This document shows positions 2,202-25,782 of a DNA stretch of 64,000 nt, one piece after another (positions within the stretch are counted from its first letter, which is position 1; every line of letters starts with the position of its first letter). Both the position numbers and the translations under genes were made by a program. The notes under the pieces were generated by a model. That model did no database searches and was not told where the DNA came from. It was given only the letters and a program-made list of their open reading frames with translations. The DNA comes from Caldifarciminota bacterium (lineage in GTDB: Bacteria > Hydrothermota > UBA3073 > JACQXS01 > JAGMCI01), in NCBI GenBank assembly GCA_023129325.1, contig JAGMCI010000033.1:1-64000 (forward strand), read 5' to 3'.

Positions 2202-3677
2202 TCACCTAACTACTATCATCTTTTTTGTTAAAGTTATATCTCCTGTTTCTAGTCTATAAAAGTAAATTCCACTCGCTACTCTCTCCCCATTTTCATTCTT
2301 TCCATCCCAGATAACTGTATAATATCCCGGTTTTTGCCTTTTGTCAATAATTTTTTTAATAAGCCTCCCAGAAATATCATAGATTTTGAGCGATGCTTCA
2401 CTCACATCTGATATCTGATATCTGATTTCTGTCTTCTGACTAAACGGATTAGGATAAGCTTCATATAATCCCAATTCTCGCTTCTCGCTTCTCGCTTCTT
2501 CTACTCCTTGGGTCCCTTGCAATGCACAAAGAGTGTTCCCAAATCCAACAAATATCATATCCCCATAGATAATAGGCCATGCATAACCTATCCCACCAGG
2601 CTGATAATAAGCATAAATTTCCTCTCCTGTTTCCACATCCAGGGCACACAACCGATTATTTTCTGAGGTATCTGTTTTGCCAATCCATACCAATCCATTG
2701 GAAGTTATAAGTGGAGAAGAAATAATACCCTGTCCACTTAGTTCTTTTTCCCAATTAATTGAACCAGTAAATATGCTTGCACAATATACATCACATGTGT
2801 CTGGACAAAATTTTCTCTCAGCTGGTATATATAAAAAAGTATCATAAACAGCAGGAGAAGCATCAAAGAAAAGGGTCTGTTCTTCACTAATTTTCCATCT
2901 CAGTTCACCTGTTTCTGCATCAAGAACATAAAAGGTATCTCTCCATCCGAAGGTAGCAAAACAAATTATCCCCTGTGCCACCGTAGGGGGAGTCTTTATC
3001 CCAGCTTTTGCCTTAAATGCCCAGATACTATCCCCTGTTAAAGCATCTAAAGCTATCATAGTAGAGTCATCACCCCCTATATATACCTTTCCATTGTAAA
3101 CTGCAGGTGGAATATGTGAAATAAGAGAAACACTATCAGGCCAAAGCTCATAATGCCACTTCATATCGCCTTGAAAATTAAAGGCATATACATCACCTTG
3201 ACCTTCTGAGACATAGACGATACTATCTACTGGAACTGGTGGGGACTGAACTGTATGTGAAAGAGTGTCCCACTTTATCTCACCTGTTCTTGCATTAAGA
3301 CAAAAGAAAGTAGGTAATTCTACTCCTCCCCAACTTGTGCCTGCAAATAGTAATGTATCTACCAAAGCAGTTGTCCAGACATTTGCAGTAAGCTGTTGCT
3401 CCCAGATGACCTTCCCCGAATCAACGCTTAAAGCCATAAGTCTATTGCCTCCATCTCCCACATAAATCATACCATTTCCCACTGAAGCAGAGAGCATTGT
3501 AAAATCATTATAACTTGCCTCAAATGTCCACTTCAATTCTAATGGTGGCGAGAGAGGCGATGGATAATACCCTGTATGCTGTGGGTCAAACTGAAAAGTA
3601 GACCAGGGTATAGGCTCATCACTCGAAAGAGGACTTGCTACAAAGCCTAAGAGAAAAATGATTACCTTTACTCCCAT
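2202..3677 (-). CDS. PQQ-like beta-propeller repeat protein with T9SS-type C-terminal sorting domain
   Basis: Repeated LYALDAETGELRWK-type blades; C-terminus YPNPFSQKTEIRYQI...LKIYDISGRLIKK...GIYFYRLETGDITLTKKMIVVR. Confidence 0.85.
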   Translation of the reverse strand: MGVKVIIFLLGFVASPLSSDEPIPWSTFQFDPQHTGYYPSPLSPPLELKWTFEASYNDFTMLSASVGNGMIYVGDGGNRLMALSVDSGKVIWEQQLTANVWTTALVDTLLFAGTSWGGVELPTFFCLNARTGEIKWDTLSHTVQSPPVPVDSIVYVSEGQGDVYAFNFQGDMKWHYELWPDSVSLISHIPPAVYNGKVYIGGDDSTMIALDALTGDSIWAFKAKAGIKTPPTVAQGIICFATFGWRDTFYVLDAETGELRWKISEEQTLFFDASPAVYDTFLYIPAERKFCPDTCDVYCASIFTGSINWEKELSGQGIISSPLITSNGLVWIGKTDTSENNRLCALDVETGEEIYAYYQPGGIGYAWPIIYGDMIFVGFGNTLCALQGTQGVEEARSEKRELGLYEAYPNPFSQKTEIRYQISDVSEASLKIYDISGRLIKKIIDKRQKPGYYTVIWDGKNENGERVASGIYFYRLETGDITLTKKMIVVR

Positions 3678-3742: not shown

Positions 3743-5236
3743 TTATCTCACAAAGACTACCTTTTTTGTTTTACATACCTTTCTTGTTTTTAAATGATAA
3801 AAATAAACACCACTTCTCACAACTTTTCCTTGCTCATCTTTTCCTCTCCAAATGAAGTTATAGACCCCGGGCTGTTTCTCTCCTTCAAAGATAGTTTTTA
3901 CTAATCTGCCCGTTACATCATAAATTTGTAGAGACGCCTTACCTGCAATCGGTAACTCGTAACTAATCACTGTCTTTTGACTGAATGGGTTTGGCTTATT
4001 CTGAAAAAGTCTTATGTCTTTGGTCTCTGGTCTTTGGTCTGTCTCTTCTTCCACTCCTTGGGTCCCTTGCAATGCATAAAGAGTATTTCCAAATCCAACA
4101 AACATCATATCTCCATAAACAATGGGCCAGGCGTAGCCAGTTGCACCAGGTTGATAATAAGTATAAATTTCTTCTCCCGTTTCTGCATCCAAGACACACA
4201 GACGACTTTCTGAGGTATCTGTTTTTCCAATCCATACCAGTCCATTAGAGGTTATGAGTGGAGAAGAAAAAAGCATCCCTCGTCCACTAAACTCCTTTAC
4301 CCAACTGACTGAACCAGTAAATATGCTGACACAATAGAGCTCGTGTGTATCCACATCAAATTTTCTATCAGTTGGTATATATAGAAAAGTATCATAAACA
4401 GCAGGTGAAGCCGAGGAGAAAGCTATTTGTTCTTTGCTCATTTTCCATATCAGTTCACCCGTTTCTGCATCAAGTGCATAAAGAGTATCTCTCCATCCGA
4501 AGGTAGCAAAACAGACTATTCCATGTGCCACCGTAGGAGGAGTCTCTATCCCAGCTTTTGCCTTGAATGCCCAAATACTATCGCCTGTTAAGGCATCTAA
4601 AGCTATCATAGTAGAGTCGTCACCTCCTATATACACTTTTCCATTGTAAATAGCAGGTGGAATACATAAATCAAGTAGTTTATACTGCCATTTTATTTCT
4701 CCTTGAAAGTTAATTGCATAAATATATCCATGAAGGTCAGAAACATAAACAATGGTATCTACTGGAACTGGTGAAAACTCAACTGTATTAAAAAGAGTGT
4801 CCCACTTTATCTCACCTGTTCTTGCATCAAGGCAAAAGAAGGTAGGTAGGTCTATTCCGCCCCAACTCGTCCCTGCGAACACAAGTGTATCTGCGAGTGC
4901 AGTTGTCCATACATTTGCAGTAAGCTGTTGCTCCCAGATGACCTTTCCCGAATCAACGCTCAAAGCCACAAGTCTCCTATCGCCTGGGTCTCCTAAATAA
5001 AGCATACCATTGCCAACTGAGGCAGAACTCATTGTTAAGACGTAACTTGCCTCAAATGTCCACTTCAATTCTAACGGTGGCGAAAGAGGCGATGGATAAT
5101 ACCCCGTATGCTGTGGGTCAAACTGAAAAGTAGACCAGGGTATAGGTTCATCACTCGAAAGAGGGCTTGCTATAAAGCATAAGAGAAAAATAATAATTGG
5201 TGACGGACTACTATTTTTCATCCCATATTTCCTCAT
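3743..5236 (-). CDS. PQQ-like beta-propeller repeat protein, tandem paralog, T9SS-type C-terminal domain
   Basis: Near-identical propeller to the neighbouring ORF; C-terminus NKPNPFSQKTVISYELP...LQIYDVTGRLVKTI...SGVYFYHLKT. Confidence 0.85.
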   Translation of the reverse strand: MRKYGMKNSSPSPIIIFLLCFIASPLSSDEPIPWSTFQFDPQHTGYYPSPLSPPLELKWTFEASYVLTMSSASVGNGMLYLGDPGDRRLVALSVDSGKVIWEQQLTANVWTTALADTLVFAGTSWGGIDLPTFFCLDARTGEIKWDTLFNTVEFSPVPVDTIVYVSDLHGYIYAINFQGEIKWQYKLLDLCIPPAIYNGKVYIGGDDSTMIALDALTGDSIWAFKAKAGIETPPTVAHGIVCFATFGWRDTLYALDAETGELIWKMSKEQIAFSSASPAVYDTFLYIPTDRKFDVDTHELYCVSIFTGSVSWVKEFSGRGMLFSSPLITSNGLVWIGKTDTSESRLCVLDAETGEEIYTYYQPGATGYAWPIVYGDMMFVGFGNTLYALQGTQGVEEETDQRPETKDIRLFQNKPNPFSQKTVISYELPIAGKASLQIYDVTGRLVKTIFEGEKQPGVYNFIWRGKDEQGKVVRSGVYFYHLKTRKVCKTKKVVFVR

Positions 5237-5366: not shown

Positions 5367-6407
5367 TTATTCTTCAGAATATCCAAGTGAGAAGGCCATT
5401 GTTATGGCTTTAGGCTTGCAAACTTTATAACAGAGGGCACAACCAATGCATTTATCCAAAATTACCCTATGCTGTTCTCCTGTCTCTCCTTCAATTGCTT
5501 TAGTTGGGCATACTTTTTTGCACTCTTCACAACCTGTACAATTACTGCCAATCATAGCTTTTGGTCTTGCCTTCAGCTTGTCAATAATTGCACCTGTAGG
5601 ACACTTGTGAACACAAATTCCACAATTCTGACATCGCTCAAAGTTTATATACGCTAAATTATCCTTGATTTCTATCGCTTCATAAGGACAGTTTTTTTCA
5701 CATAATCCACACCCTATACAGCCTGTTTTGCAAGCACCCTTGGTAGCTTTTATATTATCAAATGAACTACAACCAACATAAATTTTTTGCGCCTTTGGAA
5801 AAAGCACAAGTATATTCTTAGGACATATTTCAACGCATTTCCCACAGCCAGTACATTTTTTATCATCTATGATTGGTAAATTACTCCGTGGTGCTCGTTC
5901 CGATTCGTCAGAGTGAAAAGGTCGTGGTGAACCATTTTCTCCAAGTTTTATAGCATCAAAAGGACATACTTCTACGCAGTCTCCAAATCCTAAACATCCA
6001 TACCGACAAGAGTTTGGTCCCTCATTTACTAAATTGGCAGCAATACAATTTTGAATACCCCTATAATTGAATTTCTCGTGAGTGTTAGATTTGCTTCCGG
6101 AACACTTTAAAACAGCCACTTTGGGTTCAAGGGCTTTTGCTTCTACGCCTAATATTTGGGCAAGTTGCTCTGCTAATTCTGCTCCACCTACTGGACATAA
6201 TCCAACTTCTGCTTCTCCTTTTGCCAGTGATGTTGCATAACCTTCACATCCCGGGAAGCTACAGGCACCACAATTACTGCCTGGCAAAACATCCATAATT
6301 TGTTTCTGGCGTTTGGATATATGGACGGCTAATTTGGCATAAGCAATGGCTAAAATTACTGAAAGTAATGCCCCAAGACCACCAAGTGAGATTAAAGCTT
6401 TTAACAT
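5367..6407 (-). CDS. rnfB: RnfB-like electron transport complex subunit B, multi 4Fe-4S ferredoxin
   Basis: N-terminal TM, DVLPGSNCGACSFPGCEGYA (Fe-S motif typical of RnfB), then several CxxCxxCxxxCP clusters. Confidence 0.85.
   Translation of the reverse strand: MLKALISLGGLGALLSVILAIAYAKLAVHISKRQKQIMDVLPGSNCGACSFPGCEGYATSLAKGEAEVGLCPVGGAELAEQLAQILGVEAKALEPKVAVLKCSGSKSNTHEKFNYRGIQNCIAANLVNEGPNSCRYGCLGFGDCVEVCPFDAIKLGENGSPRPFHSDESERAPRSNLPIIDDKKCTGCGKCVEICPKNILVLFPKAQKIYVGCSSFDNIKATKGACKTGCIGCGLCEKNCPYEAIEIKDNLAYINFERCQNCGICVHKCPTGAIIDKLKARPKAMIGSNCTGCEECKKVCPTKAIEGETGEQHRVILDKCIGCALCYKVCKPKAITMAFSLGYSEE
5887..5929. repeat. 36-bp in-frame mini-insert (with flanking CGTGGTG) inside rnfB
   Basis: CGTGGTGCTCGTTCCGATTCGTCAGAGTGAAAAGGTCGTGGTG; near-identical copies at 17571 and 21963. 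Confidence 0.9.
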
Positions 6408-14610: not shown

Positions 14611-15891
14611 CTAATCAATAGTTTTAACCTTGCACGGTAAAGGAAATTTTATTTTTAGATAGGTCTCTTTATCACCAGTTAACTCTAAAGTTTTTCCCCA
14701 TACTTCTGGGAAGAGTTTAAGGACTTTATCATCTACTACAAGGACAATTATTGTTTTTTGAGGCAAATCTTTGTCAAATGTAAGTTCAATGGTATGAGAG
14801 CCAAAGGCACCGGGTTTGAAATCCACATCTATAAGTTTACCTGTCCCGATGGAATCGGGATAAGATAGTTTTTCCTTTAACAATATAGGTTTTGTAGAAT
14901 CATTGTTGACAAACCATACTTCTTTAAGTTCATAAACAGGTTGTTTAGGATATTCTGCTTTATAAAGCTCTATTTTTCCAATTTGGGTTAACTTGTTCAC
15001 TAACTGATAAAGCGAATCCTCTAAAAGAAAGGACGACGAGAAATATAGAGTTACAAAGTCTTTTTTAAATTTATATTTTACATCCTTGAATCCATAAAGT
15101 TTAAATCTCTTTGTCAATATTTGTGCTATTTTTTGAAATTCTTGCATAGTAGTCTCTTGCACAGCGGTTATTTTCAAGGCTTGGATTTTAGCTAAAGGAT
15201 TAAGAATCTTAATTGGTTTACCAATATTCTTTGCTTCAAATTTCCAAAATAGTTCCTCTTTGTCATCACTCGGAGAGGCAGGTTGTGTAACAATAACTTT
15301 TTCAGGAAGTTCAGACTTTTGATTAATCCACAGTTCACCCTGTGCTTCAAATGCAGTTGGAGACATAAAGAGTAAATTGGGTTTAAATTCATAGATTAAG
15401 AAACCGTTTTTAATATTTTTAAATTTATATTCTTCAACTGCAAGCACCAATGAGAGAAAAGATATGGGTCTTGTCTCAGAAGTCCTCTCTTGTGCTTTCC
15501 ATTTCCCATGTATCCACCTATATTCTCTGTCTCCTATGCCAATTGCTTTAAATTTTTCTTTCTCTGCTTGCCTCGCTGGAGCTTCGGCGAAGCGGGAACC
15601 AAATTTCCAGCAACCTTCAATTTTTACTCTATCATTAACCTTTTCTCCCTTAAAAGTACCTTTAACTTCTGGTTTAGAGAATTCGAGTCTGAATTCAAAA
15701 TTCTGAGAGATAAGTCTATCTATGGATTGTTTGACTTCTTGTGGATTTAATGGTTGGATGGGTTTTTCTGTGCTTTCCCGCCCGACGGGTGGCAGACGAG
15801 TTTGGGCACAGCTACAGATAAACAGAGAACAGAAGACAGAAAACAGATAACAGATTCTTCTGACTTCTATCTGTGTAATCCGCGGCTCCAT
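14611..15891 (-). CDS. Hypothetical lipoprotein
   Basis: Hydrophobic N-terminus ending in lipobox-like FICSCAQ; no recognised domain. Confidence 0.6.
   Translation of the reverse strand: MEPRITQIEVRRICYLFSVFCSLFICSCAQTRLPPVGRESTEKPIQPLNPQEVKQSIDRLISQNFEFRLEFSKPEVKGTFKGEKVNDRVKIEGCWKFGSRFAEAPARQAEKEKFKAIGIGDREYRWIHGKWKAQERTSETRPISFLSLVLAVEEYKFKNIKNGFLIYEFKPNLLFMSPTAFEAQGELWINQKSELPEKVIVTQPASPSDDKEELFWKFEAKNIGKPIKILNPLAKIQALKITAVQETTMQEFQKIAQILTKRFKLYGFKDVKYKFKKDFVTLYFSSSFLLEDSLYQLVNKLTQIGKIELYKAEYPKQPVYELKEVWFVNNDSTKPILLKEKLSYPDSIGTGKLIDVDFKPGAFGSHTIELTFDKDLPQKTIIVLVVDDKVLKLFPEVWGKTLELTGDKETYLKIKFPLPCKVKTID
14844..14860. repeat. Palindrome in lipoprotein gene
   Basis: TCCCGATggaATCGGGA. Confidence 0.75.
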
Positions 15892-15898
15892 CGGTGTT

Positions 15899-18800
15899 TC
15901 AAAATTCGGGCCCTAATGAGAAATACCAATAAGTCTTTGATAAACTCAAGAAGTCAGTGTTTTTAGCAATATCAAATTTTAATATAAAATATGGAAATCT
16001 AATCCTTATCCCGGTACCAAAGTCAAACTTTAATCCATTAGCTGATGAATTTAATCCTCCATTCTTAAAAGGTTTAAATTTTCGTGGGTCAGGAACTGCA
16101 TATCCAAAGTCACAAAATAGAGCACCTCTCACTCCTCCAATAGATAAAGATATGGGAAAGGCAATTTTAAGTTTATCAATAAATGGATAGCGCAGTTCTA
16201 AATTTAATATACCAACATTTTTACCCTTAAATTCATGAATCTCGTAACCTCGTAAATCATCAGGTCCCCCAATTAGTAGATTGACCGACTCTTTATCCTT
16301 TCCCCATATACCTGCATTAATAAACCTTATTGCAAACGAGTATCTTGGAGCAATTCTTATATATTTACGGAAATCCAATTCATAAAAATTATAAAGTAAA
16401 GTTGGTGATATGAGAGGAAGGGTGGCTCGAAGCATAAGTTTTCCTCTTTCGCCATTTTGTGGTCCCGTAGCTCCCCACCTGGTATTATCAATTACATAAG
16501 AAAGAGATGGCGAAAATAAGTAAAAAGTCTCCTTTGGCGAAAGGGGTTTTTCCTCGGGCCAGGAATATATTACTGTTTCCCAAAGAGAACCATTAAGTTC
16601 TAAATCAAAACGATGAAATTTATCTAATGGATATTCAAATAATAGTCCACATCCCTTGTATTTTTGTTGCTCTAATGTATCTCCAATTAAAAACCAATGT
16701 TCTTCTTTAAAAATAGCTCCTCCAAAATCTAATCTTTTAGGAAGATATAAATAACTTAGATAATAATTGGCAGCAAGATTTTCAGGCGAATTAGTTTCAA
16801 GATAAAATCTATGGTTTCCAAGTAAGTCAGAAACTGCCAGTCTTAAATTTCCTAATATTCCGCATCCAGAAACATAAGAGATAGCCCCACCTCCCCAGTC
16901 AGGTGTAAAACGAATTCCTAATTTCTTTACTTTAAGAATAGAAGTATCAGTTTTTACCTCAACATATTGTCTATCAAATTCTGATTTCATTGAAAGAGGT
17001 CTATACTCAAAACCTTTCTGGAATGGTTTTTTGATAAGATATACATCCCAACCCCCATTTGTGTAAAGACTGAAAGCTAAATATTTTCCATTTTTTGAAA
17101 TTGAAGGTGTAAACACTCCTCCAACAACATTAGTAAGTTGAATAATATCAGAAGATTCAATATCCAATATATAGAGGTTATTAGCTCCTGTTTGATTAGA
17201 TACAAATAAAATTTTATCCTGAAACCAGATAGGCGAAGCTACATAAGTAGCTCGTGTTTTGATAAGAGGCACAGGCTTTTGTAGGAGCAATTCATGTGCC
17301 CCTACCTTAAAGATAGTATAATACCCATAGTGCCAGTTTTCACCCTCTAAAGGTCTATCAGATGTAAAAACAATAAACTTTCCATCAGGTAACCAGCTTG
17401 GAGTTAGGTCATCATATTCATCTGATGTGAGCTGTTTGAGATTCCCAGTATTAATATTTAATACATAGATATCCGCCTTTCCATCTTTTAATCCCCTGAA
17501 AGCAATTTCTTGACCGCTTGGTGAAAAAGAAGGAGAGGAAATTTGGTCAAGTTCAACCTGCCTGCCACTCCGTGGTGCTCGTTCCGATTCGTCAGAGTGA
17601 AAAGTTCGTGGTGAACCATCAGTTAGACAGAAGGGAATTTTCTTTATTATTTTTCTTTGATGCACATTCATAATGTATAATATATCTTTACCCGCTCCTT
17701 TTGCCACAAAAGCAAGGTTTTTGCCATCAGGACTCCAACTAATTCCTCCCTGCATAATATGCAAGGATTCAAATCCTTTTGATTTTCCTCCTTTTAATAG
17801 TCTATCCTTTATTCTTCCGTTAATACTTGACATAAGCCACAAACTTTCATATTCGTCTCTGTCAGATAGAAAAGCAATCTCAGTTCCATCAGGGGAAATA
17901 CTTGGTGCAGTATTGAAGGTATAGTTCTTATGATTTGTTAGCTTTTTGGAATTAACTGGACTCTCTTCAAGCTCAGCACATTGGAGCCAATATCTCTTTT
18001 TTAAGTCGTTCATCCATAATCTATTTAACTCTTCTGTATCTACTCCAATTACAGCCTGCAATGCCTTATTTAATCCCCCAGCAGCTCCAATTTTGTGAAA
18101 TATTTCTCCTATTTTCCTTTCACCATACCTATCGGCAATAAATTTCAAAATAGATTGTCCTTCTTTATACATAAGATAAGACCCTGCTATAAGCTCAAGT
18201 TGTTGAATTGGCTTTAGCCGACTATAGTATAAAGCATCTCTGATAACCATATCAGATTCAGCATCCCAGTCAAGTGAGAAATATTCAGCCATCCCTTCTA
18301 TAAACCAGAGTGGAACAGCAAATAAATTAATTTTTGGTAATATAGATGCAATTCCTGTCCCTTGTGATATGGCAAATTGAAACGCATGTACAAGTTCGTG
18401 AGCTAAAACATGTCTAAATTTCTCATAAGAACCATCAAAGGGAATAACAACACGATTTTTAAATATCTCTGTAAATCCACCAGTAGCTTCATCAATTAAA
18501 GAGAGAGTAATGTTTGTTTGTTCAAAATCATTGTGAGATTTATAGATAATAACAGGAATTGGCTCTTTTGGAGTATAAGAAAGAATTTGAGAGTATCTTT
18601 TATAAGAATCAAGTAATACCTGGTTAGCAAATTTTGCTAATCTTTCTCCACCTGAATAATAAATGATACTAAACTCATCTGTATCTATTACTTTCCAATC
18701 AAAATTCTTGTATTGAACCTTATTTTGTCCAAATTCCCAATATTGAGCATTTGCAACTGCAGGAATAAAAAGCAAGACCAAAAATAAACCACTCCATGGT

Positions 18801-18982
18801 AAAGGTCGTAATGAACCACGAATTACATTTACCCCGTACTTATGTATAAGTGCGGGGCGAATTGAACGAATAAATGTGTAAATAAGGGAAAATGGAAAGG
18901 TTGGGAAAAGGGGATATATTAAATTTCTCCCTTCTTCCCTGTTTCCCCTTTTTCCTTTCATTACACAAATCTGGGGTTTCAT
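15899..18982 (-). CDS. TolB-like beta-propeller protein with N-terminal gluzincin-like domain and C-terminal BamA/TamA-like outer-membrane barrel; true start probably internal
   Basis: HVLAHELVHAFQF (HExxH), repeated FSPSGQEIAF/WSPDGKNLAF blades, C-terminal LLIGGPDDLRGYE, LRYPFIDKLKIAFPI and SLGPEF terminus. Confidence 0.7.
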   Translation of the reverse strand: MKPQICVMKGKRGNREEGRNLIYPLFPTFPFSLIYTFIRSIRPALIHKYGVNVIRGSLRPLPWSGLFLVLLFIPAVANAQYWEFGQNKVQYKNFDWKVIDTDEFSIIYYSGGERLAKFANQVLLDSYKRYSQILSYTPKEPIPVIIYKSHNDFEQTNITLSLIDEATGGFTEIFKNRVVIPFDGSYEKFRHVLAHELVHAFQFAISQGTGIASILPKINLFAVPLWFIEGMAEYFSLDWDAESDMVIRDALYYSRLKPIQQLELIAGSYLMYKEGQSILKFIADRYGERKIGEIFHKIGAAGGLNKALQAVIGVDTEELNRLWMNDLKKRYWLQCAELEESPVNSKKLTNHKNYTFNTAPSISPDGTEIAFLSDRDEYESLWLMSSINGRIKDRLLKGGKSKGFESLHIMQGGISWSPDGKNLAFVAKGAGKDILYIMNVHQRKIIKKIPFCLTDGSPRTFHSDESERAPRSGRQVELDQISSPSFSPSGQEIAFRGLKDGKADIYVLNINTGNLKQLTSDEYDDLTPSWLPDGKFIVFTSDRPLEGENWHYGYYTIFKVGAHELLLQKPVPLIKTRATYVASPIWFQDKILFVSNQTGANNLYILDIESSDIIQLTNVVGGVFTPSISKNGKYLAFSLYTNGGWDVYLIKKPFQKGFEYRPLSMKSEFDRQYVEVKTDTSILKVKKLGIRFTPDWGGGAISYVSGCGILGNLRLAVSDLLGNHRFYLETNSPENLAANYYLSYLYLPKRLDFGGAIFKEEHWFLIGDTLEQQKYKGCGLLFEYPLDKFHRFDLELNGSLWETVIYSWPEEKPLSPKETFYLFSPSLSYVIDNTRWGATGPQNGERGKLMLRATLPLISPTLLYNFYELDFRKYIRIAPRYSFAIRFINAGIWGKDKESVNLLIGGPDDLRGYEIHEFKGKNVGILNLELRYPFIDKLKIAFPISLSIGGVRGALFCDFGYAVPDPRKFKPFKNGGLNSSANGLKFDFGTGIRIRFPYFILKFDIAKNTDFLSLSKTYWYFSLGPEF
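17281..17305. repeat. GTAGGGGC-type palindrome inside CDS
   Basis: GTAGGAGCAATTCATGTGCCCCTAC. Confidence 0.75.
17571..17613. repeat. 36-bp in-frame mini-insert inside the propeller/barrel gene
   Basis: CGTGGTGCTCGTTCCGATTCGTCAGAGTGAAAAGTTCGTGGTG; one mismatch to the rnfB copy. Confidence 0.9.
18832..18857. repeat. Palindrome near 5' end of the propeller/barrel gene
   Basis: CCCCGTACTTATGTATAAGTGCGGGG. Confidence 0.75.
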
Positions 18983-20700
18983 TTTATCAACAATATTTTC
19001 TTTACTATTTTGTATTCTCCTGATTTAAGCTTAATGAAATATATACCAGATGGATAATTGCTTGCATCCCAAGTAACGGCAGTGGTTAGTGGTAAGTGGT
19101 TAGTGGTAAGTGGGAAAGACTTAACCAATCTCCCGCTTAAATCGTAAATTTTTAAACTGACTTTCTGTCCTTCACTAATCCCTAAGCACTGAACCCTAAC
19201 CACTGTAGTAAAGGGGTTTGGATAACACTCTAAACTCTGAACTCTAAACTCTGGACTCTTTGCTTCTTCCACACCTGGGGTAGCACGATAACCGATACTG
19301 AAACTTTTTAAACTGTCCATATTTGCAGTTATTGTAATTGTATCTCCTGATGAATTAACTCTTATTGTTTGATAAATATCATCTACGCGAATATTACCTG
19401 TTCCTGTAGAAGTTTTAACTATTGCTTTACCCTCATATATTCCTGAATTTGTATCAGTCTCAATTAAAGCAACAGCAATACCTCCAGTATAGATACTTGA
19501 TTTTACAATTGCTATTGCCGCTTCCCAAATAGAAGAGAGTCTATCAGTTCCATAGATACAGAGATATAAAGTGTCAGGGTCATTACCTATAGAATCTATT
19601 ATTGTAGAATAAGTATTATCGTAGTTCCTAACAGAATCTATAGATGTAGGTTCCCCAGGGACACCTGGAATAAAATCATTCTTAAAAGGCATAATATCTG
19701 CAGGTCCTTCAATCAAATTCTGAATAGTAGTGGTATCTTTAAACCACCAAAAGTTATTCTCAAGTGGAATAGTAATACTTGTATTGTTGTCAATTTCTGC
19801 ATCTGGTTGGAAGGTGTTATAATAAAGATGGGAGTGGTTTATTTTAAGTGTATCAGCATCGTCTGGCAAATAAGCCAATCCTGTTTCTGAAAAATATCTT
19901 GCTCCATTATCTGTGATAAAGCACGAGTCAATAAATATCTTGTCATATACTCCAACGCGTATAGCACCACTTTCCCACCAAGCTTGATTTCCACATATTA
20001 CACAACCTCGAATAATAGGTGAGGACCAATAATCACAGTAAATCCCTCCCCCGTAGTCTGATGAGTTATCACATATGAGGTTATACTTGATAAAAGGTGA
20101 GGAAATGCTACAGTAAATTCCACCGCCGTGATTAGCCCAGTTGCCCTGAATGATATTCTGCTGAATAACAGGAGATGAGAAATAACAATAAATTCCCCCT
20201 CCTGACTTATTTTGGATGATATTCTGTTTAATAGTAGGTGAGGAATAGCTACAGCGAATGACTCCACTTCCTTTTGAACCCTGCAAAGTAAGCCCTTGAA
20301 TCACTGCTTCACGAGAAGAATTATCATCAAATGAACAGCAGATAACATGAAAGGCAGTACCGGATGTATCAGCAGCATCGAGTGTGCAGGCGGATGCGCC
20401 GTGCTCACTCATCAAACAGATTGAATCACGCATAATAAGACCAATATAACCTTTATCAGTGGCAGTATTTATAGTTACAAAATATCTTCCATCCTGAACC
20501 ATCACAGTATCATAGGCATTACAGATATTTATTGAATCCTGAATTGCCTGCCCTGAAGAGCCTGACTCAACTACCCTAATTTCCCCAAATACAGATGTAG
20601 CAATTAAAAGACTTAAAACAGCACACAGACCTGCCTGCAGCCAAAATAAAGATTTTTCTCTGTGTCCTCTGTGGTTCATTTTTAATTTTTGATTTGTCAT
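18979..20700 (-). CDS. Right-handed beta-helix repeat protein with T9SS-type C-terminal sorting domain
   Basis: Repeats SPTIKQNIIQNKSGGGIYCYFSSPVIQQNIIQGN; C-terminal CYPNPFTTVVRVQC...LKIYDLSGRLVKSF...GIYFIKLKSGEYKIVKKILLIK. Confidence 0.8.
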   Translation of the reverse strand: MTNQKLKMNHRGHREKSLFWLQAGLCAVLSLLIATSVFGEIRVVESGSSGQAIQDSINICNAYDTVMVQDGRYFVTINTATDKGYIGLIMRDSICLMSEHGASACTLDAADTSGTAFHVICCSFDDNSSREAVIQGLTLQGSKGSGVIRCSYSSPTIKQNIIQNKSGGGIYCYFSSPVIQQNIIQGNWANHGGGIYCSISSPFIKYNLICDNSSDYGGGIYCDYWSSPIIRGCVICGNQAWWESGAIRVGVYDKIFIDSCFITDNGARYFSETGLAYLPDDADTLKINHSHLYYNTFQPDAEIDNNTSITIPLENNFWWFKDTTTIQNLIEGPADIMPFKNDFIPGVPGEPTSIDSVRNYDNTYSTIIDSIGNDPDTLYLCIYGTDRLSSIWEAAIAIVKSSIYTGGIAVALIETDTNSGIYEGKAIVKTSTGTGNIRVDDIYQTIRVNSSGDTITITANMDSLKSFSIGYRATPGVEEAKSPEFRVQSLECYPNPFTTVVRVQCLGISEGQKVSLKIYDLSGRLVKSFPLTTNHLPLTTAVTWDASNYPSGIYFIKLKSGEYKIVKKILLIK

Positions 20701-20745
20701 TTTGATATTTTATTTTTGATATTTAATATTATGTTCATCTGTGGC

Positions 20746-21129
20746 TCATAATAGTTTGCCTAAAATAAAACCCAAAACTATTCCTATTAGTAATGCCGTG
20801 ATAAGAACTCTTGATTTAAATATATCTATCTTGTGTCCCCTTCTCAAGACTAAAAGAGTCACTACATAAGCAAATCCATTTGCAATCCAAATAAGGGGAA
20901 GAGAGACTATTTTTACTATAAATGGACCTACCACAGGAATAAGGTTAATAGTGCTCAAGAGTCCAGAAAAAGCTTGAGTAAAGAATCCAAACACAATTAC
21001 ACCAAAAGCCATAATCTTCTTATCCAGCCCAAAATGTAAAAATATAAATATGACAATACCAATAATAACCCAGCTAATCAAAAGCTTCTTATTCCGAACA
21101 AAAAATTGTCTCATTATTAGTAAGTGCAA
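20746..21129 (-). CDS. Small multi-span membrane protein, unknown function
   Basis: 127 aa with several hydrophobic segments. Confidence 0.55.
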   Translation of the reverse strand: MHLLIMRQFFVRNKKLLISWVIIGIVIFIFLHFGLDKKIMAFGVIVFGFFTQAFSGLLSTINLIPVVGPFIVKIVSLPLIWIANGFAYVVTLLVLRRGHKIDIFKSRVLITALLIGIVLGFILGKLL

Positions 21130-21266
21130 AAATATGCCACAGATTGCACAGATTAAAATGTTTTTTTCTAATCAATGAAATCCGTGGCTCTTCTTAAATT
21201 TTGATTTGACATTTCAATATTTGCATTTTAATTTTTACATTTGCATAGTTTGTGGCTTCATAGTTA

Positions 21267-22019
21267 CTATTTTAATGTAAAAAAGACTTTGAATCCGTTG
21301 GGTTTTATTATTAATCCATATCTTGGTGGTTCGTGGGAAGCAATTATTGCACTTATAAGGCGGTTTAATATGGCGGCTCCTACACAATAACTTGCTCTTT
21401 GAAGAACTTCTCTCTTCTCTTTTCTTAAGTTCCGATAGCCTTTCCATTTTCCGTTTGAGATAGACCAATCCCACTTTAAACTTTCAGGCATACTGTTTTC
21501 TTCAATATATTTGAGTTGACGTTCTCTGGCATCTTCTGGATACTTATCTTTAGGATAAATTTCTCTTGCTTCTTGTCTAATATATTCATTATAGTCATCT
21601 AAACTTTCATACCATTCAACTGTATCGTAATAATCTCCACCTTCTCCCATTTTAGCTCCTGAATTTGCATGAGCATAGAGCATATAATCATTTTTAAGAA
21701 CTCCAGCATACCACCTGAAGCCAAAATAAGTGAACCATATACTGCCTTCTATCAAATAAGCTCTTATAGCATCTTTCTTGTTTCCCATATATTGTTCTCC
21801 AAGTCCTGGAACCAATAAAGATAAAGCTATTGCTTTCTTATGAGATTTAGGCTCAAGTACAATTTCGGGTGGAAAATCCAGAGGCTTTAATTCCTCTACT
21901 CCATAAACTGCAGTGCTTAAAAATATTAACATTATTTGTATAATCTGTGTTAATCTGTGGTTCACCACGACCTTTTCACTCTGACGAATCGGAACGAGCA
22001 CCACCGAGTGGTTCTTCAT
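21267..22019 (-). CDS. Exported protein of unknown function (DUF5683-like appearance)
   Basis: SLLVPGLGEQYMGNKKDAIRAYLIEGSIWFTYFGFRWY; likely true start at MLIFLSTAVYGVEE, with upstream codons derived from repeats. Confidence 0.55.
   Translation of the reverse strand: MKNHSVVLVPIRQSEKVVVNHRLTQIIQIMLIFLSTAVYGVEELKPLDFPPEIVLEPKSHKKAIALSLLVPGLGEQYMGNKKDAIRAYLIEGSIWFTYFGFRWYAGVLKNDYMLYAHANSGAKMGEGGDYYDTVEWYESLDDYNEYIRQEAREIYPKDKYPEDARERQLKYIEENSMPESLKWDWSISNGKWKGYRNLRKEKREVLQRASYCVGAAILNRLISAIIASHEPPRYGLIIKPNGFKVFFTLK
21963..22005. repeat. 36-bp mini-insert at gene start (reverse orientation relative to window)
   Basis: CACCACGACCTTTTCACTCTGACGAATCGGAACGAGCACCACC. Confidence 0.9.
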
Positions 22020-25000
22020 TTTACGACTGCGAATTTCTTAAACCTTACAAAATTCTCACTCCCTGCCTTGACTTCAATACGGCATATATAAATGCCACTC
22101 ACAAGGTCAGGAAGTGGAACTTCTATAGAGCCCTTTTCCCCAATTTTACCCTCAAAATCTTTTACTATTTCACCTGCTATATTGATTATTTTTATGTTCA
22201 CCGAGCTCGCAGAGCCGCTGAAATATTTTATCCTTCCCCAACTGTGGACTGGATTTGGATATATATAAAAAGGACTTTCTTTGAATACATTAGTTGGAAT
22301 TATTGGAGGTGTTGGAGTAAGCTTGTAGATACCGTTATTACACTCATCACAATGAAGCATGGCCCAAGGTAAAGCACCATAATTTCCAAGACTCCAGGCA
22401 TAAAGTTTGCCGTCATCACAACCTACAATAATTTCAAGTAACTCATCACCATCAATGTCAACAAGAACTGGGGTTGAATAAATTTTACCCCCAACTGATA
22501 ATGGAAATCCAGAGGCAAGGTCTCCTTTATTAGTATAAGCAAGAAGTTCACCATCTGGAGAACCAATTACAATTTCAAGTCTTCCATCTCCGTTTATATC
22601 CCCAACCACAGGAGATGACTGAAAGGACTCACTAACTTTTGTTTCGATTGGAAAACCAGGCAAATTTGCCCCATTATTATTAAAGGCGTAAATCTTATTT
22701 CCTGCGGCTAATATTATGTCTAAAAGAGAATCACCGTCAATATCAGCTAAAGCTGGTGATGAATAAAAAGAAGTATCTTTTAAACTGCGACTCCAGATAG
22801 TCTTACCACTGTTATTTATACAGTAAACTTCACCTATTCCAGTAGATATAATAATTTCTGATTTTCCATCTCCATTTATATCACCGACTACAGGAGATGA
22901 AGTAGTAGGGGGGAGGTGTGGCTCAAGTGCAGTCCATAATGTGTCACCATTTGGTTTTATTGCCCATATTCTGCCATCAAAAGAAACAGCATAAATTACC
23001 GTATCACAAGAATCATAAACAGGTGTTGTCCATATATATTGATGTAAATTTTTAGGAAACCCAGCCAATGAATTCCCATTACCATCCCAGGCATAAAGTT
23101 TGCCATCATCTGAGCCTATAAAAATTTCTTTACCTTCAATAGTATCAATATTTGCCAAAAGAGGTGCAGAAATTATTGCATCTCGTATTGTATCAGTGGT
23201 TGGAAATCCAGGAAGTATATTTCCAGATAATATATCCCATGCATATACTTTGCTCCATACCTCAAGTACACTATCTTTTGCCATTTTGAAAGAAGATGTA
23301 GCCGAAGGCTTTAGCCTTCGTGAATAAAAAGTCTTCTTACTTTCTCGCCAACGTCCAAAATATGCACCACAAACAACATCTGGAATGCCATCCCCATTTA
23401 TATCACCTATTGCCGGTGATGAAAAAATATTTGCACCATATCCAGCATCCACAGGTTGATAACTCCACTTAATTCCACCGCTATCATTGCATACAAATGT
23501 ATAACCACCATTGAGAGTATCCATAACATTACAGGCAATTAGCTTTTTGCCATTAACCTCTATAATATTTGGTGAGTTTACATCAAAAAAGTCACCACAT
23601 TTTACTGGAAAACTTGCATATCTCCAGTCAAATTTAAGAGAAAAGCTCATCACAGTATCTGATTTGCTAATATTATAAATAGAGATATGTGACATTGAAC
23701 CTTTATTATTATTTGTATTTGGTTTTGTAATTGGTGTAAACTTATCTAAGTTCCCTTCGTAAAAAACATCCCATGGTGTGCCATAGAAAAAAGCCTCCAT
23801 ATTTGTTGCCAACCACCAAGGAGTCTCGAAATCTTGAATCCCATCTGCTTCTTCCATATCTACACCTTTTGGGGAACCAACATTTATTTCATTCATCAAG
23901 GAATCACGGGCAACTTTATCCTCATCTATATGCCATATTGCAAGCCCACCAGCCATTGTATCACAGGGTGTCCCCCAATCATAATCATCAAATCTTATAA
24001 GAACTCCGTCCTTCCATACCCTTATACCAGTGGAATCAAAATGAAAAATGGAATCCGGGGAAACCCAGAACGAGTCTACTGATGTATCAGGTGAATGATA
24101 TGCAAATCTCTCGGTTACTAAAAAATACTCTTTTGTATTTATTGGCACTTTATAAAGTTTAGTCCTTGTGGTGTCATTACCTCCCATTCTGTAGACTTTT
24201 ATATCAGTAGTGTCTTTATCAAGAATTTCTGGCTTTATCCAGCCAAGTTTTTCTGTATGCCATGCTGAAGTATGCGGAGGCAATAATCCATTTAAATTCC
24301 AGTTTCCTGTTCCCATTAAAGCCCAGCCTCCACAACCCATTGTCTCACCCCAAGTGTCATATAAGTCATATAGCCCTAATTGATGCCCAAACTCATGAGC
24401 TAATCCGCCCTGCAGATAACCTGACATACCATCTTGAAATGCAGTCTCTGGATAAATTATACCCTCTGTAATTGCGACTGTGCCATCATCCACCCAGACA
24501 GGAGTTCCAAAATATTCATCAATATTAGCTACAAAACAAGCAATAATATCACAAGGAGAATCCCAGAAATAATCCGTCTGCCACATTGAACCAGCATGAA
24601 AAAGGATAACAGCATCATAATTTTTGAACTTTACCAAAGTATCTTCATCACAAGTAAGAACTGCATCTCTAAAAAGAGTAAGTAAACCTTGAACATAATT
24701 TTCAGGGTCGCCATAATAAGTCATTTTATAAGGGAGTTTATAACTTGCATTGTCTCCATCAGGAACAACATCAAACTTTATATATAATTTACCTCCAGAG
24801 TTATCCCACCAATAATTTCTTAAAGATTCCATCAGATGCTCAAAATATCTTTTGGTATGTGGTGGGTCGTAGTAAAGATTATGATAGCCCTTATTCCCAG
24901 ATATGGAATCAAATGGAGAATCTCTTTTCCCGTTTATATAGCCAAGCGAATCATAAGGAAACTCATTGCCCTCAATATCCATTAATCCATTTCCAGTGGT

Positions 25001-25312
25001 TAGTGAAGTCGTATCTTCTTGAAATTCAATCCTTATAGCAAGAACATAAAGAGTATCAGGCCCAGGACCCAATTTTCTTTTCTTTATCCCTTCAAGTAAA
25101 TTTCTTTTTGATGGTTGACGAATATATCTTTTAAGTTCAGGTTTCTCTTTAAAGAGCTTGTCAAATTTTTGATTTACAAATTTTACCCTCTTTGTTCCAA
25201 GCTCCTTTAATTTCTTAAATTGAGCCCGCTCACTTGCCCAACTTGAAAAACTCAAAACAGCACACAGATTTACACAGATTAAAAAGATAAACACAGATTT
25301 GAATTTTTTCAT
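22016..25312 (-). CDS. M6-family metalloprotease domain protein with FG-GAP/VCBS-type propeller and T9SS-type C-terminal domain
   Basis: HEFGHQLGLYDLYD zinc motif; repeated VVGDINGDGRLEIVIGS; C-terminal YPNPVHSWGRIKYF...GIYICRIEV. Confidence 0.85.
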   Translation of the reverse strand: MKKFKSVFIFLICVNLCAVLSFSSWASERAQFKKLKELGTKRVKFVNQKFDKLFKEKPELKRYIRQPSKRNLLEGIKKRKLGPGPDTLYVLAIRIEFQEDTTSLTTGNGLMDIEGNEFPYDSLGYINGKRDSPFDSISGNKGYHNLYYDPPHTKRYFEHLMESLRNYWWDNSGGKLYIKFDVVPDGDNASYKLPYKMTYYGDPENYVQGLLTLFRDAVLTCDEDTLVKFKNYDAVILFHAGSMWQTDYFWDSPCDIIACFVANIDEYFGTPVWVDDGTVAITEGIIYPETAFQDGMSGYLQGGLAHEFGHQLGLYDLYDTWGETMGCGGWALMGTGNWNLNGLLPPHTSAWHTEKLGWIKPEILDKDTTDIKVYRMGGNDTTRTKLYKVPINTKEYFLVTERFAYHSPDTSVDSFWVSPDSIFHFDSTGIRVWKDGVLIRFDDYDWGTPCDTMAGGLAIWHIDEDKVARDSLMNEINVGSPKGVDMEEADGIQDFETPWWLATNMEAFFYGTPWDVFYEGNLDKFTPITKPNTNNNKGSMSHISIYNISKSDTVMSFSLKFDWRYASFPVKCGDFFDVNSPNIIEVNGKKLIACNVMDTLNGGYTFVCNDSGGIKWSYQPVDAGYGANIFSSPAIGDINGDGIPDVVCGAYFGRWRESKKTFYSRRLKPSATSSFKMAKDSVLEVWSKVYAWDILSGNILPGFPTTDTIRDAIISAPLLANIDTIEGKEIFIGSDDGKLYAWDGNGNSLAGFPKNLHQYIWTTPVYDSCDTVIYAVSFDGRIWAIKPNGDTLWTALEPHLPPTTSSPVVGDINGDGKSEIIISTGIGEVYCINNSGKTIWSRSLKDTSFYSSPALADIDGDSLLDIILAAGNKIYAFNNNGANLPGFPIETKVSESFQSSPVVGDINGDGRLEIVIGSPDGELLAYTNKGDLASGFPLSVGGKIYSTPVLVDIDGDELLEIIVGCDDGKLYAWSLGNYGALPWAMLHCDECNNGIYKLTPTPPIIPTNVFKESPFYIYPNPVHSWGRIKYFSGSASSVNIKIINIAGEIVKDFEGKIGEKGSIEVPLPDLVSGIYICRIEVKAGSENFVRFKKFAVVK
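23303..23320. repeat. Palindrome in M6 protease gene
   Basis: CGAAGGCTttAGCCTTCG. Confidence 0.75.
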
Positions 25313-25562: not shown

Positions 25563-25591
25563 ATTATATCCTAATAAATTCTATCTGTCAA
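25563..25591 (-). promoter_or_regulatory. Promoter of tRNA-Ser (TTGACA-17-TATAAT)
   Basis: Complement TGTCAA 25586-25591, ATTATA 25563-25568. Confidence 0.8.
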
Positions 25592-25782
25592 GAAAAAAAG
25601 AACCACGGATTTCACAGATTATACGGATTAAAGATATACTTTAAAAAAATGTTCATAGATTACGCAGAACTTACAGGAATAGAAAGGATATTTTATTCTA
25701 AATCTGTATTATCTGGATAATCCGTGAACTTGTCTTTTCATAATACATCCCCGCCTTGACTCGCAGGTAAGGCAGGAAATAG

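Follow-up and report, generated by a model that had tools for sequence, protein, structure and literature searches.

Dispersed repeat DNA in the signal peptides of a WOR-3/Stahlbacteria-related bacterium: probable takeover of n- and h-regions in older export signals

Signal peptides (SPs) evolve fast, near-random sequence easily suffices, and the origin of a new signal sequence is rarely visible. In the 64,000-nucleotide stretch of Caldifarciminota DNA analyzed here (the window), five genes, 22016, 18979, 15899, 14611 and 21267, all on the minus strand, carry dispersed repeat DNA at their 5’ ends, and intergenic repeat arms that match SP codons make the source DNA traceable. Did such repeats create these export signals, were they built into signals that already existed, or do they only appear to encode them? 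The explanation considered probable here is that dispersed repeats, among them a palindromic CACAGATT element, have taken over SP n- and h-regions under a tolerance filter.

Contig C27, which holds the window, belongs to a draft genome of 2.02 Mb (G000; 57 contigs, 89% complete). The named relatives of the window’s M6 protease, found by alignment-query search, are Candidatus Stahlbacteria and candidate division WOR-3 metagenome-assembled genomes. Stretches totaling 939 kb of G000 (~47% of the genome) and 1,126 kb of its nearest relative, G001 (~60%), were sampled. Genes were called by hexamer score and SPs by a simple hydropathy rule; predicted Sec SPs were examined for n/h/c architecture and ortholog conservation. 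An 11-mer repeat mask was noisy (body background 5-8%), and a 12-mer mask, codon-shuffle tests and tandem arrays called by TRF (score cut-off 36 or more; independent of the k-mer mask) were used instead.

Repeat DNA at the starts of five neighboring genes

Gene 22016 (22016-25312) encodes an exported M6 metalloprotease/FG-GAP protein with a C-terminal sorting domain (Pfam Peptidase_M6, FG-GAP, Por_Secre_tail) and the SP MKKFKSVFIFLICVNLCAVLSFSSWAS. The h-region of this SP is encoded by an arm of the palindromic element (25251-25301). The SP codons (FKSVFIFLICVNLCAVLS) match the left arm of an intergenic element on contig C18 (L018 1975-2025) with 94% identity across 51 nt (E 9e-17). The only later in-frame starts are a GTG at codon 7, from which the SP is still repeat-coded, and a TTG that abolishes the SP. 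Gene 18979 (18979-20700) encodes an exported right-handed beta-helix protein (Pfam Beta_helix, Por_Secre_tail) with the SP (M)NHRGHREKSLFWLQAGLCAVLSLLIATSVFG. A forward CACAGAGG repeat (20656-20679) carries its ATG and encodes the n-region MNHRGHREK, and the base end of an element arm (20607-20629; 91% identical over 23 nt to the 22016 arm) encodes GLCAVLS of the h-region. This base end, CTGTGTGCTGTTTTRAGT, was found at 8 places with up to 2 mismatches as compared to 0 in the control.

The lipoprotein-like gene 14611 (14611-15891) has no Pfam match, and its orthologs have lipoboxes. Its SP, MEPRITQIEVRRICYLFSVFCSLFICSC, is almost wholly encoded by an array of CCGCGGATTACACAGATA, CAGAAG and (TTCTGT)n with inverted arms (15812-15889); a copy of CACAGAT in it runs forward, and the TTCTGT array is inverted. 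As read from the sequence, neither 18979 nor 14611 contains an in-frame ATG, GTG or TTG between the repeat and the mature protein. Gene 21267 (21267-22019) encodes an exported protein of unknown family, without a Pfam match, with the SP MNHRLTQIIQIMLIFLSTAVYG. This is a weaker case, in which repeat DNA makes up no more than the n-region and an initial portion of the h-region. The SP probably starts at a GTG at 21965, with the n-region (NHRLTQI) encoded by a CACAGATTAACACAGATT repeat (21940-21965); starting at a downstream ATG instead would reduce the signal to a stub of 11 residues, compared to 18-19 residues in the closest orthologs.

In gene 15899 (15899-18982; Pfam Peptidase_MA, PD40 and Omp85), a conserved SP lies behind an extension of ~60 residues (18800-18982) made from several repeat families. 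The sole in-frame ATG, GTG or TTG between the extension and the SP is a TTG within the hydrophobic core, and a signal starting there would be too short. The ancestral start codon of this gene seems to have been lost.

A preliminary description of this DNA had named four of these genes (22016, 18979, 21267 and 14611) together with their repeat overlaps. Genes and overlaps were found where it had placed them, and the repeat is far above chance. A downstream start followed by a repeat-free SP, which would have spoken against its reading, was found in none of 22016, 18979 and 14611, with 21267 again the weaker case.

Repeat enrichment in signal peptides and replacement in orthologs

Repeats are enriched genome-wide at SPs called by the hydropathy rule, a point that the preliminary description had put forward for checking. 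With the 12-mer mask, 30/176 SP regions of G000 overlapped a repeat as compared to 29/510 cytosolic N-termini (p=1.5e-5), and one start rule applied to both classes gave an odds ratio of 2.5-2.9 (p 0.0026 to 6e-5). TRF arrays were present in 24/176 SPs as compared to 21/510 cytosolic N-termini (p=5e-5) and 38/2,069 windows within the same SP proteins (p=5e-12). N-termini of multi-pass membrane proteins were not enriched (4/81). Array coverage peaks at 7-9% at the h-core and is ~0-1% in the mature part, and 25 SP arrays were observed where a codon-shuffle null gave 2.3. When SP status was taken from the G001 ortholog, the difference persisted (13/63 compared to 12/195, p=0.002; p 0.02-0.12 with other start rules and masks). 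Since SP status is then set by the ortholog, this removes the circularity that would arise if the repeat itself made the N-terminus hydrophobic.

The CACAGA family accounts for about nine of the ~176 SPs; others use TTCTGT/CAGAAGT, ACTTCCT, TACTG, TTTTGCA and ATTTTTGATTTT words. Of 33 listed genes, 32 contain an 11-mer that recurs at 4 or more other places in the sample. The earlier claim that a cacagat repeat encodes SPs stands in part. The n- and/or h-regions are repeat-coded, but the phenomenon is not specific to cacagat, as at least five other word families do likewise, and the forward orientation gives polar n-regions rather than hydrophobic ones.

Counterparts of these proteins in up to 40 relatives carry an SP or lipobox in the corresponding place, for the most part encoded by unrelated DNA, and orthologs of all five proteins of the region bear an SP or lipobox made of other DNA. 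The c-region is common to the closest orthologs (SSWAS/CRTWAS, TAVYG/TAIYG and SVFGE). Because the signals are already there in the orthologs, the repeats appear to have replaced n/h sequence of existing signals. On this sequence comparison export is older than the repeats, and a protein feature would have been rebuilt with repeat DNA as its raw material. The repeat-coded SPs are predicted to be functional from their intact reading frames, conserved c-regions and orthologs.

Several relatives make the corresponding SP with different words. For 15899, TTCTGTC arrays are used in the G005 ortholog and TTACTTG arrays in G004; for 14611, the G001 ortholog has TTCTG arrays. In the orthologous pair a341/b417, the SP is made from ACTTCCT in G000 and from inverted CACAGA-like copies in G001, and G004 and G005 (L090/L089) encode one and the same SP with different words. 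Of 147 SPs of orthologs in relatives and named genomes, 11 contained arrays as compared to 18/1,468 body windows (p=2e-5), a count in which a few loci are the same genome under two names and the cases are therefore not fully independent.

The palindromic element, its polarity and alternative explanations

The repeat is a dispersed family, with 287 sites in the 939 kb of G000 (including some chance coding matches, such as the 13 in a gene whose ICVNPNTN motif is repeated) compared to 26 in the 1,126 kb of G001. Intergenic DNA holds 229 of the 287 sites, and those within genes lie chiefly at SPs and gene ends. The word GATTACACAGAT occurs 21 times in a 683-kb sample where 0.18 would be expected. 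Genome-wide, there are 8 exact occurrences of CACAGATTNACACAGATT and 5 near-full arm copies, the 22016 copy included, compared to 0 of either in the reversed control; reversed sequence likewise gave 0 two-core sites. Intergenic copies have the consensus AACCACAGATTACACAGATT, and adjacent copies are inverted, with arms facing, far more often than everted (23 compared to 5; binomial p about 0.001). The seven full copies that were aligned are hairpins of ~110-130 nt with inverted CACAGATT arms, in a layout (~110 nt) of GCACACAGATTnACACAGATTGAAnAGATAAnCACAGATTTG, a loop and TTCTGTGnnAATCTGTTTTATCTGTGAnAATCTGTGTGC. These copies fold strongly (-31 to -41 kcal/mol). Covariation could not be demonstrated among them (1/28 pairs) because the paired positions are nearly invariant.

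The element had no match in Rfam at gathering thresholds. A covariance model, which counts the palindrome on both strands, found it abundant in G000, G002, G007 and G008 and weak in G001, and did not find it in G004 or G005. In the window, the model (R1) matched a short intergenic form at 21123-21205 (E 3e-4) and a long one at 25589-25743 (E 7e-6). A related 19-mer, CCACAGATTNACACAGATT, is patchy across the phylum (14/147 genomes), and several of the loci that contain it (L291-L301) also hold arrays of the words GAGGTTGAGG, GACAGGAGG and TACTACTTAC. Further strong palindromic families, CGTCAGCTGACGG, CGCCTCAGGCGG, CCCGCCTTGACTCG and CGCACTTATGCATAAGTGCGGG, are present in the G000 sample, some of them within coding regions.

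The two readings of the repeat differ sharply in what they encode. In reverse (TCTGTG), 36.5% of open frames are hydrophobic compared to 6.3% in random intergenic DNA, which bears out the preliminary description on this point. The forward reading (CACAGA) gives 0% hydrophobic frames and a mean net charge of +0.59 compared to +0.43 in random intergenic DNA. The 9 forward cores found in SP genes are all located in n-regions; the reverse cores are spread over n-regions (4), h-regions (3) and the c-region or mature part (1). Repeat-masked DNA, all families pooled, does not exceed other intergenic DNA in hydrophobicity (3.5% compared to 3.2%); only arrays (8.5%) and the reversed CACAGA family do. 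In 21 intergenic elements, the second arm was more hydrophobic than the first in 95/126 strand-frames because the arms of the palindrome are reverse complements, and n-to-h order was seen in 37/46 fully open frames. This order tends to arise from either strand because codons with a middle A are polar and their reverse complements, with a middle T, are hydrophobic. The SPs of a9, a102, a109, a517 and 14611 show this inverted, n-then-h arrangement.

Together these patterns suggest how the takeover may have come about. The ~110-nt palindromic element and several arrays of 6-9-nt words would have spread through the intergenic DNA of the WOR-3/Stahlbacteria lineage, with some copies extending into genes at the 5’ end. 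Such copies would seldom be kept in cytosolic or multi-pass membrane proteins. SPs, which would tolerate nearly any polar-then-hydrophobic sequence, could retain them, so that the n- and h-regions would be taken over and the native c-region and cleavage site would stay. The A-rich arm would supply residues that are polar and mildly basic, the opposite strand of that arm would supply Leu, Val, Ile, Cys and Phe, and an inverted repeat would thus tend to give an n-region followed by an h-region on either strand. Repeat density 120-180 nt upstream is alike for SP genes (6.5-7.4%) and cytosolic genes (5.4-7.0%), and only within or near the N-terminal codons do the two differ (4.1-4.7% compared to 1.5%). 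The apparently equal supply upstream, with a difference only at the first codons, favors a retention filter, and neutral invasion followed by a tolerance filter is the most likely course. A bolder extension, in which palindromic A-rich repeats are portable SP precursors whose recurrent insertion provides a standing supply that rebuilds export signals, with species using different word families for the same protein’s signal, is offered tentatively as a possibility.

Several points weigh against a takeover. Inverted repeats are more numerous in SPs than in shuffled sequence (9 compared to a mean of ~2.8 and a maximum of 7 in 12 shuffles), but this overall difference is no more than suggestive. 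The enrichment figures rest on ~47% of G000, with SPs called by a simple hydropathy rule and not by SignalP. The effect in G001, where CACAGA sites are few, is weak (p 0.02-0.34 by mask and start rule; TRF 12/198 compared to 22/761, p=0.049; codon shuffle 11 compared to 1.7). Several array families could also be products of in-situ slippage and not of insertion.

Among other explanations, the one that survives best, although it is unlikely, is that repeats at gene starts are regulatory, acting as a leader RNA hairpin, a protein binding site or a source of slippage-driven phase variation, with SP coding as a by-product. The strong folding of full copies agrees with such a role, and a regulatory role has been proposed for TAACTGA heptamers just upstream of start codons in Beggiatoaceae (PMC4679880). 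However, upstream sites occur in both orientations, many are far from any gene start and SP genes have no surplus of sites farther than 120 nt upstream.

Somewhat less likely still is that hydrophobic, T-rich codons and local replication slippage make SP DNA array-like, its likeness to dispersed repeats being incidental. SP DNA is T-rich, some arrays look local, such as TATTTTTGTATTTTTGTA in the G007 ortholog, and the arrays of a47, a193 and a587 have few copies elsewhere. But the codon shuffle preserves composition and removes the signal, N-termini of multi-transmembrane proteins are not enriched, polar n-regions are repeat-coded too and the SP of 22016 reproduces 51 nt of an intergenic arm.

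It is improbable that the pattern is an artefact of gene starts, with true starts downstream and the repeats as 5’ untranslated DNA. The forward-orientation cases 21267, a63 and a9 could in principle use later starts, and the cytosolic genes a548 and a684 also show repeat-made N-terminal extensions, but 14611 and 18979 offer no such start, the only repeat-avoiding later start of 22016 loses the SP and orthologs have an SP at that place. The proposal of the preliminary description, that repeats create new export signals and turn non-exported proteins into exported ones, is the least probable and largely refuted for the window genes: reverse-strand frames are often hydrophobic and the 22016 arm by itself supplies a complete h-region, yet every listed gene, like all five proteins of the region, has orthologs with an SP or lipobox of other DNA, and it is ortholog-defined SP genes that carry the enrichment.

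If takeover by dispersed repeats is the correct reading, SP turnover can be followed directly by comparing genomes and tested with simple reporter fusions. In the annotation of candidate-phylum genomes, a repeat-coded N-terminus should not by itself be taken as a mis-called start.

Comparison with known repeats and signal sequences

Repeat DNA in this region also lies within genes. A 54-nt dispersed repeat (TGGTTCACCACGACC...CCACTCCGTGG) has copies, 96-98% identical, at 5883-5935, 17565-17618 and 21958-22011. The last forms a further N-terminal extension of the open reading frame (ORF) of 21267, and the second lies in a 27-residue in-frame insert (17555-17635; residues 450-476) in the PD40 propeller of 15899 that is absent in orthologs. 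In the 14611 ORF, palindromes at ~14840-14866 and ~15570-15600 encode SYPDSIGTG and RFAEAPARQA, both of which are missing from the G001 ortholog and resemble in-frame inserts of Rickettsia. Elsewhere in the window, the tandem duplicated ORFs 2202-3677 and 3743-5221 share DNA blocks that are 81-95% identical.

Rickettsia palindromic elements (RPEs) frequently insert within protein-coding genes without disrupting the reading frame (review PMC10969869). The element described here is likewise a palindromic repeat within ~100-150 bp, and the inserts in 15899 and 14611 resemble RPEs. RPEs differ in being ~150 bp long and in encoding a conserved internal peptide, and the present genome is not from the Rickettsiales. 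Frequent insertion into mature domains is not a feature of the mostly intergenic CACAGATT element, although other palindromes here do insert internally.

Short, mostly intergenic palindromes are also typical of repetitive extragenic palindrome (REP) sequences and their REP-associated tyrosine transposases (RAYTs; Y1_Tnp), and G000 has 4 Y1_Tnp genes. However, CACAGATT elements do not generally flank these genes. The site counts give no clear support for a link to a Y1 transposase: 6 sites lie within 1.5 kb of one Y1_Tnp gene and 0-2 near the others, with a background mean of 1.3. Two RAYT-like genes (L134 2690-3550 and L018 6540-7000) are flanked by other palindromes (GGCACGATTTCAAATCGTGC; GCCGAGG..CCTCGGC), as in REP-RAYT pairs. 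Miniature inverted-repeat transposable elements are defined by terminal inverted repeats together with target-site duplications and a parent transposase; for the present element, the inverted arms are the one observation that bears on this class.

Heptamer arrays, namely TAACTGA in Beggiatoaceae, cyanobacteria and Bacteroidetes (PMC4679880) and GGGAATC in Xanthomonas and Nostoc (PMC4692102), resemble the present arrays as dispersed 6-9-nt words near gene starts with a patchy distribution across taxa. Periods of 6-9 dominate among all TRF arrays; the CACAGATT element, however, is inverted, with a spacing of ~10 nt. Heptamer arrays are described as mainly intergenic and possibly regulatory, and SPs are unmentioned in either paper.

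A literature search by repeat sequence returned unrelated papers only, and no report of a genome-wide, multi-family takeover of SPs was found, subscription literature being outside the search. Members of a Schistosoma gene family have a signal sequence in common, and repetitive elements flanking it aided its dispersal (PMC3434034). A single earlier precedent came to light: the RU-2 repeat forms part of the predicted SP of Yersinia YPO1552, and related proteins elsewhere have unrelated SPs (Delihas 2007, PMC2759123). The same is seen in G000, where a repeat encodes part of a predicted SP, including its start, and orthologs have SPs unrelated to the repeat. RU-2 is the same kind of event, observed once, in one gene and with one long mobile repeat, whereas G000 presents many genes, several families of ultra-short words, a measured enrichment and the polarity of a palindrome.

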